Counted from the stretch's first letter, positions 3,300-34,157 are shown. The stretch: DNA of 35,238 nucleotides from Candidatus Muproteobacteria bacterium (GCA_003251795.1 QKEI01000161.1:1-35238), one strand, 5' to 3'. Numbers and translations are program-made. The notes: generated by a model from the sequence alone, not told the origin.

Positions 3300-4079
3300 A
3301 TGCCCGATACTATTTTGATCGAGCGCGTTGGACCGATCGCGACGGTCGTGCTCAACCGCCCGGAGAAGCTGAACGCACTGACCAAGCCCATGTGGCAGCG
3401 CCTCGGTGACGTCATCGCCGAGCTCTCGGCGGACGATGCATTACGTTGTCTGGTGCTACGCGGGGCCGGAGATAAGGCGTTCGCGCCCGGCAACGATATT
3501 TCCGAGTTCGAGAACGAGCGCGCCAATGTCGAACAGGCGCGCGCCTATGGCGCCATCATGCGCCGCACGCTCGCCGCTTTTGAACATTGCCGTCATCCGA
3601 TGGTGGCGCTAATCAAGGGTATCTGCGTCGGTGGCGGGCTCGAGATCGCCGCCAACTGCGATCTGCGCATCTGCGGCGAGTCGAGCCGTTTCGGTGTACC
3701 TATTAATAAGCTCGGACTGGTTATGGCGCACGCGGAGTTGCGCGGTTTGTTGAACCTGGTCGGTCGGGCGACCGCACTGGAGATTCTGCTCGAGGGTCGC
3801 ATATTCGGCGCGCACGAGGCGAAGGAGAAAGGCTTGATCACACGCATCGTGCCGGACGACAAGGTCGAGGAAGAGGCCTATGCGACCGCGCAACGTATCG
3901 TCGACGGCGCTCCCTTGGTTGCGCGCTGGCACAAGAAATTTGCCGAGCGACTCAGCGATCCGGCGCCGCTAACCGAAGCGGAGGTCGACGAAGGCTTTAC
4001 TTGCTTCGGTACCGAGGACTTCCAGATCGGCTACCGCGCGTTCCTCAAGAAGGTCAAACCGGATTTCAAGGGACGCTGA
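3300..4079 (+). CDS. enoyl-CoA hydratase/isomerase (crotonase) family protein
   Basis: This 259-residue crotonase-fold protein is full length. The oxyanion-hole segments are present: AFAPGNDISEF (60-70) and the GGGLEIAANCD block (111-121). E115 matches the first catalytic glutamate of enoyl-CoA hydratase (rat E144). The second catalytic glutamate (rat E164, in the QPEI motif) would fall at residue 135, where this protein has Ile in FGVPINKLG. It may therefore not be a simple hydratase; isomerase, lyase or other crotonase chemistry is possible. A good site (AAGGAG, seven bases before the ATG) drives translation. The stop is one base from the start of the next gene, so co-expression with the CoA-transferase is nearly certain. 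Confidence 0.88.
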   Translation: MPDTILIERVGPIATVVLNRPEKLNALTKPMWQRLGDVIAELSADDALRCLVLRGAGDKAFAPGNDISEFENERANVEQARAYGAIMRRTLAAFEHCRHPMVALIKGICVGGGLEIAANCDLRICGESSRFGVPINKLGLVMAHAELRGLLNLVGRATALEILLEGRIFGAHEAKEKGLITRIVPDDKVEEEAYATAQRIVDGAPLVARWHKKFAERLSDPAPLTEAEVDEGFTCFGTEDFQIGYRAFLKKVKPDFKGR

Positions 4080-4080
4080 A

Positions 4081-5277
4081 ATGGGCCCGCTCGCCGGCGT
4101 GAAGGTCATCGAATTCGCCCATGTCATGGCCGGGCCCACCTGCGGGTTGATGCTGGCCGACATGGGGGCGGACGTCATCAAGGTCGAGCGAGTCCCCGAC
4201 GGCGAAGACACGCGCCGCATGACGCCGCCCACCATCGACGGCGAGGCGGCGGCGTTCCTGATGATGAACCGCAACAAACGCGGTATGGCGGTCGATCTCA
4301 AGCACGAAAAGGGCAAGGCTATCGCTCGCCGCCTGCTGCGCACCGCCGATGTCGCGATCGAAAACTTTCGCAAGGGCACGATGGAACGCCTCGGCCTCGG
4401 CTACGAAGAGATGCGCAAAGACAACCCGGTCCTGATCTACTGTGAAGTCTCCGGCTTTGGGCGCACCGGGCCTTATGCGGATCGCGGTGGCTACGATCTC
4501 ATCGCCCAGGGCATGTCGGGCTTGATGAGCATCACCGGCGAGGGACCAGGGCGCCCGCCGGTGAAATGTGGCGCGCCCATGACGGACATCACCGCGGGCA
4601 TTCTTGCGGCCATGGGCGTACTCGCTGCCTATGCGCACAGGCTCAAGACGGGGGAAGGTCAGCGCGTGGACGTATCGCTGTTCGAGGCCGGTATCGTCCA
4701 CACCTATTGGCAGTCGGCAATCACGTTTGCGATCGGCAAGCCCCCGGGTCCAATGGGCTCGGCGCATCCGTTGAATGCCCCCTACCAAGCGTTCCAGGCG
4801 GCGGATGGCTGGATCACCATCGGCGCCGCCAACCAGCCGAACTGGTTTAAGTTGCTCGAGGCGCTAGAAGCCGGCGCGCTCAAGGATGATCCGCGCTTCG
4901 CCAGCAATGACGCGCGCATGACCAACTTGCCGGCGCTGGTGGATGTGTTGAAGCCGCTGTTCAGGCAGCGTACCTGCGCCGATTGGCTAAAGCGCCTGCA
5001 GGAGGCCGGTGTGCCGGCGGGACCGGTGCTCGACATCGCGCAGATGCATGCCGATCCGCAGACACTCGCGCGGGAAATGGTGGTCGAAGTGCCGCACAGT
5101 CGTCTCAAGAAGCACAAAACCCTCGGCGCACCCGTTAAATTCTCGGGTACGCCAAGCACTGTCGAACGCGGCGCGCCGCTGCTCGGCGAGCACACACGTG
5201 AGATCCTTAGCGAGTACGGCTATACCGAAGAAGTAATCGACGACCTGATCGCCGCGGGCGTTGTCATCGCCGCGTGA
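4081..5277 (+). CDS. CoA-transferase family III (CaiB/BaiF)
   Basis: This 398-residue protein has the family's typical length and landmarks. The start reads LAGVKVIEFAHVMAGP, followed by LADMGADVIKVE (25-36), NRNKRGMAVDLK (63-74), ENFRKGTMERLG (94-105), and the nucleophilic aspartate D169 in GAPMTDITAG, at the same number as in formyl-CoA transferase. Such enzymes move CoA between carboxylic acids through an aspartyl-CoA thioester. It is the last gene of the operon and begins one base after the crotonase stop, with AGGGA inside the end of the crotonase gene as likely ribosome site. The pair probably activates and then processes one organic acid; which acid is unknown. A second, separate CoA-transferase lies at 10618-11808. 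Confidence 0.9.
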   Translation: MGPLAGVKVIEFAHVMAGPTCGLMLADMGADVIKVERVPDGEDTRRMTPPTIDGEAAAFLMMNRNKRGMAVDLKHEKGKAIARRLLRTADVAIENFRKGTMERLGLGYEEMRKDNPVLIYCEVSGFGRTGPYADRGGYDLIAQGMSGLMSITGEGPGRPPVKCGAPMTDITAGILAAMGVLAAYAHRLKTGEGQRVDVSLFEAGIVHTYWQSAITFAIGKPPGPMGSAHPLNAPYQAFQAADGWITIGAANQPNWFKLLEALEAGALKDDPRFASNDARMTNLPALVDVLKPLFRQRTCADWLKRLQEAGVPAGPVLDIAQMHADPQTLAREMVVEVPHSRLKKHKTLGAPVKFSGTPSTVERGAPLLGEHTREILSEYGYTEEVIDDLIAAGVVIAA

Positions 5278-31505: not shown

Positions 31506-32234
31506 TCAGGCCCGCTCGCGTAACTTACTGGCGAACGCAAGCAGAAAACCCAATGATGCCTGTGTTTCGGGCTTGGACAACATGCCAAGCGTCGCAAACA
31601 GACCACCCTTGTGTGACGTCTCTGCTGCCTCCGTGGCCGCTTCATGCAAGGCGCCCTTGGCCACACCGGCGAGTACCGCCACTTCCTCATTCGCCAGATT
31701 GTTCACCATCTGCTCGATAAATACCGCGCCGCGCTCGACGATATTGTCGGTAACGGCGTTGCGCATAGCGTTCAAGAAGTGGATGAGCTCGAACAGGGTG
31801 ATGATGCCGCCGTTGCGGTGCAACGTAGTCAATTCCTCCAGTAACGTGTGAATTGCTTCGCGCGTCTCAGGTTGAGTCATCTGATCGGCAAGCTCGAGCA
31901 CACTGGTGGTGGCGACAACGCCACGCTCGACTATGTTATCGCTTACGGCGTTACGGGCGGCGTTAAGCAGGTGACCCATGTCTAACAGGGCGGCCAAGCC
32001 GCCGTTGCGGTGCAATGCCGTGAGGCCGTCGAGTAACGTATGTACCGCCTCGCGTGTGGCTGGATCGTTTAGGCGGTCGACGACCTCAAGGGCGTTGCTT
32101 GCGGTTGTGGCACCGCGCTCGACCATGCCGTCAGTTAGCGCATCACCCAGGGCGGTGAGCACTTGCTGCATCGGTTCCGGTGGCACCTGCATCGGCACCG
32201 GTTCCGGTTGTTGACTCGCTTGCGCCTTGCTCAT
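31506..32234 (-). CDS. DUF1641 family protein with two exact-length internal repeats, last gene of sulfur operon
   Basis: The start is fixed at 32234 by a perfect AAGGAGGG site; the protein has 242 residues (a frame opening at 32291 is ignored). Repeat units begin at D35 (DGMVERGATTASNALEVVD), D99 (DNIVERGVVATTSVLELAD) and D163 (DNIVERGAVFIEQMV), a strict 64-residue period. The first two share P-TREA-HTLL--LT-LHRNGG and LNA-RNAV at matching places; the third is diverged. The C-terminal part (GALHEAATEAAETSHKGGLFATLGMLSKPETQASLGFLLAFASKL) carries DUF1641 features. DUF1641 proteins occur beside sulfide:quinone reductase-like genes; their function is unknown. It starts 10 bases after the SQR-like stop, so the two are translated together. 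The N-terminal 25 residues are proline/glutamine-rich. Confidence 0.8.
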   Translation of the reverse strand: MSKAQASQQPEPVPMQVPPEPMQQVLTALGDALTDGMVERGATTASNALEVVDRLNDPATREAVHTLLDGLTALHRNGGLAALLDMGHLLNAARNAVSDNIVERGVVATTSVLELADQMTQPETREAIHTLLEELTTLHRNGGIITLFELIHFLNAMRNAVTDNIVERGAVFIEQMVNNLANEEVAVLAGVAKGALHEAATEAAETSHKGGLFATLGMLSKPETQASLGFLLAFASKLRERA

Positions 32235-32244
32235 GATGCCCTCC

Positions 32245-33384
32245 TTACAAGAGACCCCGGGCCGATAGCCAGTATAGGCGGTTATAGGCAAGCTTGAACC
32301 AGTGAATCATTTGGGACGGCGGGCCCGGATTCGGCGGCGTTGTGTAGTTGAACCATACGTAGGTGCCCGTCTTGGTACCGGTCTCGACGAAACAATAAAC
32401 TTTACCATCGTACTCGCGCGCCATGCGGTCTTCTTGCAACAGCGACACGAGGTTGTCGACAATCGTGTCGGCCTCGAAATGCGCCGTCGATCCGGCCTTA
32501 GAGATGGGGATGTTAGTTGTATCGCCGACAACGAAAACGTTGTTCGAGCCTTCGCGATGCAAGGTTTTCGGATTGGTCGGTACCCAACCGCCTTCACCCA
32601 GTTTCGAATCCATGATTACTTGCGCCCCTTTGTGCGGCGGAATCGTCACCAGCAGATCGTAGGGCAGGGTGACACCTTCTTCGGAAGAAATGGTCTTGCC
32701 CTTGGCATCAACTTCCTTGGTATTAAAGAACGTTTCGTACTTGATACCAAGGCGCTCCATCTCCGGTTTTGCCCAGTTGGCGACTGGTTCCAGGGCGTGC
32801 AGGCGGCCGATGGGATAGGTATAGGTGATTTCCGACTTCTTCAACAGATCGCGCTCGCGCAGAAAGTCGTAAAGCATAAAGGTGATTTCTAGCGGTGCCA
32901 CTGGGCACTTGTGTGGCACGTTGGAGTTCACGATCACCTTGCCGCCGGCAAACGTGCCGAGCGTTTCACGCATCTTGCGCGCGCCCTCCAGATCGTAAAA
33001 CCAATGCGCACCTTCGGCGAGGCCCGGCACCTCTTGCGGCATGATACGAGAACCGGTGGCAATGACCAGATAATCGTAACCATAGCTCTTACCCGATTCT
33101 GTAGTCACCTTGTTGGCATCTACGTCGATACGAGTAACCGGATCAACAAAGAACGCGATGCGTCTATCGAGTACCTTGCGCTCGTCGCGAAACAGCTCCG
33201 CCTCGCGGATGCGCCCGAACGGTACGTACAAAAGACCAGGCTGATACATGTGTGTATCTGTGGCGCTAAGTACGGTAATGCTGAGTTGTCCAGACCGAAG
33301 CTCGTTGCCGAGCTGGCGGCACAGGCCATTGGCGACAATAGTTCCTGCTAGACCGCCGCCGACGATCAATACGTGTTTTGCCAT
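32245..33384 (-). CDS. sulfide:quinone oxidoreductase-like flavoprotein
   Basis: This 379-residue two-Rossmann-domain flavoenzyme begins with the FAD fingerprint HVLIVGGGLAGTIVANGL (4-21). YLVIATGS (105-112) and VFVVGDTTNIPISKAGSTAHFEAD (283-306) are the standard flavin-contact motifs. Cysteines C160 (NVPHKCPVAP) and C331 (VYCFVETG) match the two redox cysteines of sulfide:quinone reductases that line the re-face sulfur tunnel; a third cysteine of some classes is absent (C22 is elsewhere). The C-terminus (MIHWFKLAYNRLYWLSARGLL) is amphipathic, as expected for membrane attachment. It should oxidise sulfide or a persulfide and reduce quinone. GGAG precedes the start. Upstream genes encode TusA and DsrE, and DUF1641 follows, supporting sulfur trafficking. 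Exact type and direction of reaction are not proven. Confidence 0.85.
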   Translation of the reverse strand: MAKHVLIVGGGLAGTIVANGLCRQLGNELRSGQLSITVLSATDTHMYQPGLLYVPFGRIREAELFRDERKVLDRRIAFFVDPVTRIDVDANKVTTESGKSYGYDYLVIATGSRIMPQEVPGLAEGAHWFYDLEGARKMRETLGTFAGGKVIVNSNVPHKCPVAPLEITFMLYDFLRERDLLKKSEITYTYPIGRLHALEPVANWAKPEMERLGIKYETFFNTKEVDAKGKTISSEEGVTLPYDLLVTIPPHKGAQVIMDSKLGEGGWVPTNPKTLHREGSNNVFVVGDTTNIPISKAGSTAHFEADTIVDNLVSLLQEDRMAREYDGKVYCFVETGTKTGTYVWFNYTTPPNPGPPSQMIHWFKLAYNRLYWLSARGLL

Positions 33385-33460
33385 GACTAGGTCTCCAGCG
33401 GTTGCTGCGAGACTCGGCGGCCGCGCTGCGACTGTCTCCGGCTACCGGTTCCCGCCATCG

Positions 33461-33694
33461 TTATTTCAGTTTTTTGACCACGATACTCCAATAACCGTCA
33501 CGTTCCTCATTGCTTACGAGCTCGTGACCGACCTTGGCCACCCACTCCGGGATGTCCTTGGACGAACCTTTATCTGACGACCACACCTCGATTTCATCGC
33601 CGACCTGAGAAAGCTTAAGGGTGGCGATCATCTCCATCAGTGGACCCGGACAAAAAGCACCGCGGGCATCAATCTTGCGACGCTCGGCCATCAT
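33461..33694 (-). CDS. TusA-family sulfurtransferase
   Basis: This 77-residue protein has the length and motif of TusA: KIDARGAFCPGPLMEMI with the sulfur-carrying C15 in CPxP. The rest (LKLSQVGDEIEVWSSDKGSSKDIPEWVAKVGHELV and YWSIVVKKLK) follows the TusA fold. AGAGGA precedes the two adjacent ATG codons (33694 and 33691). TusA-like proteins pass sulfane sulfur as a persulfide between enzymes. Its place between DsrE (15 bases upstream) and the SQR-like gene (76 bases downstream) suggests relay of the sulfur released by sulfide oxidation rather than tRNA thiolation. Distinguishing those roles is inference from neighbours. Confidence 0.88.
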   Translation of the reverse strand: MMAERRKIDARGAFCPGPLMEMIATLKLSQVGDEIEVWSSDKGSSKDIPEWVAKVGHELVSNEERDGYWSIVVKKLK

Positions 33695-33709
33695 CGGTTG
33701 TCCTCTTGC

Positions 33710-34108
33710 CTAAAACGTTACCAAGTCGCCCGCCTCGGCGTCTGACAGAAATCTTGTCAAACCGAGATCACCGTCGAATAGATCGGTAACCAGGTTATCC
33801 ACCGTCCAGCCCAACAGGTCAAGTGCCATGGAGCACGCATGGATCTTGAGCTGCCCCAACTCCCTACCTTGCTGCAGGAGCTGCAGCGTGTCGGGGGCCC
33901 TTCTTTCTAAAAGTAATTTAGAAAAAGCGCCGCCTTTATAGCGTTGCCGCGGTTCGATGTCTTTTGCAAAGGCAAAAATGGCATTCATGCTTACAAAGAC
34001 TTCTACCGGCCGATCGGAGACGGCGGCGACAGAAGCCAGCATCGCCGCAATATGCAGTTTCTCGTGCTCGCCAGAAGATACGAGAACGAATAAGGGCTTC
34101 CCTGACAT
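33710..34108 (-). CDS. cytoplasmic DsrE-family protein, first gene of sulfur operon
   Basis: This 132-residue protein opens with the DsrE strand KPLFVLVSSGEHEKLHIAAMLASVAAV (4-30), followed by VEVFVSMNAIFAFAKD and the helix-strand unit KIHACSMALDLLGW with the cysteine C92 typical of sulfur-accepting DsrE-like proteins, then a C-terminal GDLGLTRFLSDAEAGDLVTF. DsrE-family proteins bind persulfide sulfur and exchange it with TusA-like partners, and here the TusA gene follows at 15 bases. The protein has no signal peptide. The ATG at 34108 lacks a ribosome site at normal distance, which may mean a leaderless transcript (see findings). The gene heads the operon dsrE-tusA-sqr-DUF1641. Confidence 0.85.
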   Translation of the reverse strand: MSGKPLFVLVSSGEHEKLHIAAMLASVAAVSDRPVEVFVSMNAIFAFAKDIEPRQRYKGGAFSKLLLERRAPDTLQLLQQGRELGQLKIHACSMALDLLGWTVDNLVTDLFDGDLGLTRFLSDAEAGDLVTF

Positions 34109-34114
34109 AGGATC

Positions 34115-34120
34115 ATCATA
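34115..34120 (-). promoter_or_regulatory. candidate -10 element of the sulfur operon promoter
   Basis: TATGAT on the minus strand (34120-34115) lies about 30 bases from the centre of the FNR box. This is close to class II spacing and would place the transcript start at or next to the ATG at 34108. Confidence 0.4.
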
Positions 34121-34143
34121 AGAAACTCCCAGCCAGTGCCTTC

Positions 34144-34157
34144 TTGATCCAGATCAA
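34144..34157. promoter_or_regulatory. perfect FNR/ANR-type binding site
   Basis: TTGATCCAGATCAA matches the FNR-family consensus TTGAT-N4-ATCAA at every defined position. It is centred at 34150.5, about 42 bases before the dsrE-type start at 34108. It could activate the leftward sulfur operon when oxygen is low or act on a rightward transcript. CRP-like proteins use a different half-site (TGTGA), so FNR/ANR/Dnr is the natural reading. Confidence 0.75.

Follow-up and report, generated by a model that had tools for sequence, protein, structure and literature searches.

Among the sulfide:quinone oxidoreductases (SQR), type III is the least-known type according to PMC10205796, which also describes an operon for SQR-III, TusA and DsrE2 (MFUM_v2_0219-0221) in Methylacidiphilum fumariolicum SolV that is upregulated 1.7-fold on H2S. 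In Bacillus subtilis, the formate dehydrogenase ForC1 requires the DUF1641 subunit ForE1 for menaquinone binding and reduction (PMC8808070), and the type II NADH dehydrogenase (NDH-2) YjlD pairs with YjlC (PDB 9a63, 'Integrative model of YJLC-YJLD by crosslinking MS'). Here we describe a dsrE-tusA-sqr-DUF1641 gene block at positions 31506-34157 of a stretch of 35,238 nucleotides from Candidatus Muproteobacteria bacterium (GCA_003251795.1, QKEI01000161.1:1-35238), which in its full length is called the window in the following. The SQR-III/TusA/DsrE2 trio is already published and not new. New, as far as searched, are the conserved DUF1641 subunit of the SQR and its proposed role, and neither a fixed DUF1641-SQR pairing, nor a link to YjlC and ForE, nor a partition of hosts by dsrA and sHdrB was found in the non-subscription literature searched. 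Judged from sequence, the four genes probably form one operon for a membrane-docked, cytoplasmic SQR with its DUF1641 partner and for DsrE and TusA as sulfur acceptors, with onward oxidation of the sulfur.

An open reading frame (ORF) check confirmed four genes on the minus strand in the order dsrE, tusA, sqr and DUF1641, placed as in the initial annotation, with intergenic gaps of 15, 76 and 10 nt that are compatible with a single transcription unit. The first gene, dsrE (33710..34108), encodes a DsrE-family sulfur carrier of 132 aa with a single cysteine, C92. Its DsrE-type domain is recognized by the Pfam model DrsE_2 (1.5e-6, 28.7 bits, cut-off 25), the protein matches PDB 2qs7 at 6e-9, and C92, the carrier cysteine, is kept in 89/89 relatives. 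It is followed by tusA (33461..33694), encoding a TusA-family sulfur carrier of 77 aa with a clear TusA domain (Pfam 3.7e-22, 78.4 bits, cut-off 28.6) and a CPxP motif, here CPGP, whose cysteine C15 is invariant in 91/91 relatives. The initial annotation, which had described this block behind a perfect FNR box, is borne out with respect to ORFs, protein families and box, and all cysteines that it had named in DsrE, TusA and SQR are present and invariant among relatives. Apart from this module, the genome contains a second TusA gene next to a DsrE2 gene (301 bits, over cut-off) on another contig (C216:5147-5897).

The third gene, sqr (32245..33384), encodes a protein of 379 aa that matches Pfam Pyr_redox_2, and its best NCBIfam model is SQR_III_seleno (NF049943; type III, selenoprotein subtype; 1.2e-101, 340.6 bits, cut-off 525). 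Because the best model is a type III model and yet the score stays below the cut-off, the enzyme is classed by its sequence as type-III-like, outside the selenoprotein subtype; the latter is also ruled out by the lack of an in-frame TGA for selenocysteine and by the presence of cysteines instead. The two cysteines that are typical of type III, C160 and C331, are invariant in 21/21 aligned sequences, and the active-site cysteine pair of human SQOR aligns with them. The AlphaFold2 model of the protein is of high quality (pLDDT 91, pTM 0.90) and shows an SQR fold with FAD domain, with human SQOR as nearest Foldseek match (TM score 0.89), and with the Aquifex and Acidithiobacillus SQRs and then NDH-2 and flavocytochrome c sulfide dehydrogenase (FCSD) enzymes as further nearest solved folds. 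The last 20 residues include a C-terminal helix that is strongly conserved in the alignment and present in the model. The N-terminus directly forms the Rossmann motif, no export signal or signal peptide was seen in the protein sequence, and the enzyme most likely faces the cytoplasm. The orientation of type III SQR is disputed: the enzyme of cable bacteria is thought to be cytoplasmic by the authors of PMC13047784, and it is argued to be periplasmic in PMC13293266. The cytoplasmic orientation is favoured by the constant association of the sqr gene, within one operon, with genes for two sulfur carriers of the cytosol and for a coupling subunit of the YjlC/ForE type.

The fourth gene (31506..32234) encodes a protein of 242 aa that is predicted to be a membrane- or quinone-coupling subunit of the SQR. 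The protein scores barely over the Pfam cut-off of DUF1641 (22.3 versus 21) and contains the core motif GG-L...ML..PE.Q of the family. When its profile was compared with solved structures, just three matches were found at E < 0.001, namely YjlC (8.5e-7), an 'NDH-2 membrane coupling protein' (1.7e-6) and ForE1 (6.7e-4). The SQR in turn matches YjlD, the partner of YjlC, by sequence (9pxk_C) as well as by fold (9a63_B), and thus the SQR and the DUF1641 protein each have a homologue in one and the same complex. The initial annotation had left the DUF1641 protein as an uncharacterised partner, and this can be replaced by a more specific assignment: as the homologues ForE and YjlC serve dehydrogenases as quinone- or membrane-coupling partners, the DUF1641 protein is most likely a partner of the SQR and not a member of the sulfur relay, as far as sequence comparisons tell. 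It could alternatively be a sulfur-relay or regulatory protein, since it shares the operon with sulfur carriers and its subfamily has no known structure, but the nearest solved relatives are dehydrogenase partners and the gene directly follows sqr, which together make such a role quite unlikely. The window protein contains no cysteine, which counts against a persulfide role and rules it out as a persulfide carrier. The helical repeat of about 65 residues occurs in three copies in the window protein, in two copies in most relatives and in one copy in some.

The four-gene block is conserved far beyond chance, since the same gene order recurs in dozens of loci. The comparison comprised 60 loci with SQR from a genome scan, mainly from Rhodospirillales and relatives, together with some gammaproteobacterial metagenome-assembled genomes and Geoglobus/Archaeoglobaceae, and 29 further loci from relatives of the window genome. 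Over 90 loci, the module ranges from Alpha- and Gammaproteobacteria to Archaeoglobales, and the order dsrE-tusA-sqr is kept in nearly all loci of sufficient length. Detected with a hidden Markov model that was built from the set itself, DUF1641 is encoded directly downstream of sqr in 86/90 loci, the Archaeoglobales included. In three of the four remaining loci the contigs are cut at sqr (L050, L063, L080), and the fourth (L090) encodes a remote SQR and has no tusA, dsrE or DUF1641 gene. The neighbourhood check for co-occurrence of TusA and DsrE with DUF1641-SQR pairs that had initially been suggested thus gave the same order in dozens of loci. An evenly drawn set of 298 further genomes from the phylum contained five carriers, and each of these five has the four genes in order. 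The Pfam DUF1641 model recognizes just 14/39 aligned members of the partner family at E <= 0.01, so that most of these genes escape Pfam and the association with SQR is easily overlooked in annotation. Clustering of the neighbours within +/-6 kb gave mostly clade-specific genes except for loci linked to sHdr, and the module is otherwise mostly free-standing. The remote SQR-like protein of L090, from a genome (G001) of the same family as the window genome, has C-terminal CBS domains and adjoins a DsrC-like ORF. Moreover, five genomes of the same order as the window genome (G013, G014, G017, G021, G051) have two type-III-like SQR copies, and those copies that were examined have their own dsrE and tusA.

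Where does the sulfur go? The initial annotation had left the destination open, as no Dsr, Hdr or Sox genes occur in the window, and at the genome level this is now largely answered: contig C64 of the same genome contains the genes dsrA, B, E, F, H, C, M, K, L, J, O and P in that order. DsrA (633 bits), DsrEFH, DsrC and DsrK are over their cut-offs, and a DsrL-like NAD(P)-binding protein reaches 719.6 bits; dsrM, dsrJ, dsrO and dsrP were assigned from position and sequence only. By these gene assignments, an oxidative (reverse) Dsr pathway is encoded in this genome. No close sHdrB was found in the window genome, which rules out sHdr as its sulfur sink. Two similar sets of genes for SoxYZ, SoxB and an FCSD-like flavoprotein are present on contigs C225 and C148, the latter set close to a gene for a RuBisCO-like large subunit.

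The named loci come from 46 hosts, 43 of them bacterial and three archaeal. Among the bacterial hosts, 36/43 have dsrA, in one case as a 332-bit fragment, and 42/43 have either dsrA or a close sHdrB, which makes the module usable as a genomic marker, as its bacterial carriers almost always have one of the two. sHdrB (E < 1e-160) occurs in 6/7 bacterial hosts without dsrA as compared to 4/36 with dsrA (p = 2e-4), and 4/5 carriers of the phylum sample have at least one of dsrA and sHdrB versus 36/293 non-carriers (p = 0.001), both p-values being optimistic because the genomes share ancestry. In two loci (L017, L042) the module lies downstream of HdrC-HdrB and DsrE2 genes, and in two others (L033, L070) a gene for an LbpA-like protein of the GcvH family lies upstream. 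In L017, a gene for a putative transporter of the YeiH family, possibly a sulfur or sulfite exporter, is found upstream of the module between HdrB and DsrE2 (3415-4476). The module is common to many sulfur-oxidising bacteria and to some archaea.

These data bear on two alternative functions. In a detoxification unit, the SQR would clear cytosolic sulfide and thereby protect terminal oxidases, and DsrE and TusA would merely buffer persulfide without energy-yielding oxidation. The homologous SolV operon responds to H2S and is proposed to be part of a detoxification system in PMC10205796, and in the archaeal hosts the module is accompanied by neither sHdrB nor a dsrA over cut-off. Overall, however, the module co-occurs strongly with one of these two markers in comparison to a background of about 13%, one marker replaces the other, and genes of the sHdr type adjoin the module in several loci, which is why we regard pure detoxification as rather unlikely. 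A biosynthetic sulfur supply for tRNA thiolation or the molybdenum cofactor, with the SQR as sulfide-fed source of persulfide, appears very improbable. It is generally known that TusA has a biosynthetic role in other bacteria such as E. coli, but the TusA encoded here differs from the two other TusA homologues of this genome (28-31% identity) and travels with the SQR, and a dedicated SQR would not be necessary for biosynthesis.

We therefore return to the operon for a membrane-docked SQR with sulfur carriers and onward oxidation. The SQR on the cytoplasmic face of the membrane would take electrons from sulfide via C160/C331 and FAD, and the DUF1641 protein would form a complex with the SQR, docking it to the membrane and/or shaping its quinone site, like YjlC, by its name, for NDH-2 and ForE for formate dehydrogenase. 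The sulfane sulfur would then pass from the SQR to C92 of DsrE and C15 of TusA inside the cell, with the direction and order of transfer presumed, and because of this handover inside the cell no sulfur importer would be needed for the SQR route. In this genome, the sulfur would most likely reach DsrEFH and DsrC and then be oxidised by reverse DsrAB, and in relatives without Dsr, sHdr/LbpA may serve as acceptor. The persulfide relay that was initially postulated is partly supported, namely by the invariant sulfur-carrying cysteines, the conserved gene order and an oxidation pathway in the genome, and needed revision as to the role of DUF1641, the destination of the sulfur and the scope of FNR control.

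Several observations weigh against this interpretation. The alignment core of the DUF1641 protein comprises just 28 columns, with a probability of 85% when compared to YjlC as a single sequence, and its AlphaFold2 model is poor (pTM 0.31) and gave no usable Foldseek match, and for these reasons the function of YjlC and ForE can be transferred to this protein by analogy only tentatively. The dsr operon lies on another contig than the four-gene module, in an assembly of 306 contigs that is 94.6% complete and 4.9% contaminated. A TAT-exported FccB for sulfide is encoded on contig C239, so the SQR need not be the sole route. In the three archaeal hosts (L056, L057, L058; Geoglobus/Archaeoglobaceae), neither dsrA over cut-off nor sHdrB was found, and the Dsr or sHdr destination is therefore not universal.

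Upstream of dsrE, the sequence TTGATCCAGATCAA at 34144-34157 is the sole perfect FNR box in the window, and on the minus strand this FNR/Anr-type box (34144..34157) reads as the perfect palindrome TTGATCTGGATCAA. Perfect boxes occur 28 times in the genome as compared to one for the reversed control pattern, and the genes near them include hemN and genes of the UspA and Hsp20 types. Contig C233 encodes an FNR orthologue with C-x2-C-x5-C, a C122-type cysteine and the recognition motif LETVSR, and another FNR-like protein with cysteines is encoded on C149, adjoining a box. Around the 28 genomic boxes, -10-like hexamers peak 29.5 nt from the box centre, with 18% of oriented sites versus about 3% for other distances, and the candidate -10 element TATGAT at our locus (34115..34120, minus strand) lies 30.5 nt from the box centre, a class II activator spacing. 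Relative to the predicted start site, TTGAT-N4-ATCAA is centred at about -41.5, and together with the -10 element and a four-cysteine FNR this corresponds to a putative class II promoter. A general consensus scan for promoters and terminators gave matches that were no commoner than in shuffled sequences. The predicted transcription start would coincide with the dsrE ATG and give a leaderless mRNA; no Shine-Dalgarno sequence precedes the ATG under this predicted start.

A box with <=1 mismatch is found upstream of dsrE in 3/89 loci only, which rules out the box as a conserved operon feature and could mean that the match arose by chance and has no role in the operon. Against such a chance match stand the 28 boxes versus a single control hit, the location of boxes near hemN, UspA-type and Hsp20 genes, the FNR orthologue, the class II spacing with TATGAT, and the fact that the nearest relative (L065) has a box with 1 mismatch, and we thus judge it to be rather improbable. 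The switch at low oxygen proposed in the initial annotation is accordingly kept as plausible for this genome and given up for the system, as nearly all relatives have no box and the box therefore does not define the system. From the sequence features, FNR control in this genome is plausible as a lineage-specific, local addition, and it is probably just in this lineage that FNR raises operon expression when oxygen is low.

A wider idea, which we put forward with some hesitation since it falls a little short of being probable, is that DUF1641-related proteins are a general class of 'quinone dockers', i.e. small helical subunits that link otherwise soluble cytosolic dehydrogenases (formate dehydrogenase, NDH-2, type III SQR) to the membrane quinone pool. 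If this is true, such dockers also serve a type III SQR that is widespread among bacteria and archaea and hands over its sulfur without intermediates to TusA and DsrE in the cytosol. SQR and DUF1641 would form a two-protein unit that is amenable to expression and testing and bears on the disputed orientation of type III SQR.

How does the locus compare to known systems? The type III SQR of cable bacteria likewise has two catalytic cysteines (C159/C339 there) and no signal peptide, but it has extra cavity cysteines, and the consulted passages of PMC13047784 describe no dsrE-tusA-sqr-DUF1641 operon. In the sHdr-LbpA and rDsr systems with TusA/DsrE2 relays, cytoplasmic carriers also feed sulfane sulfur to an oxidising complex, and one or the other co-occurs with the module, but SQR-III and DUF1641 are not fixed members of these systems. 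The SolV operon combines the same three gene families, is sulfide responsive and includes a type III SQR; the consulted passages of PMC10205796 mention no DUF1641 partner and report no FNR control, and the host is a verrucomicrobial methanotroph. In case of ForC-ForE of B. subtilis (PDB 8rqz), the catalytic subunit ForC is a molybdenum formate dehydrogenase unrelated to SQR, but here, too, a DUF1641 subunit stands beside a cytosolic dehydrogenase and is required for menaquinone reduction (PMC8808070). In case of YjlD-YjlC of B. subtilis (PDB 9pxk, 9snk, 9a63), the substrate is NADH and not sulfide, YjlC is shorter and has no extra repeats, and there are no sulfur carriers, but the likeness lies in the pair itself, in which a helical protein related to DUF1641 accompanies a monotopic FAD dehydrogenase from the fold superfamily that also includes SQR.

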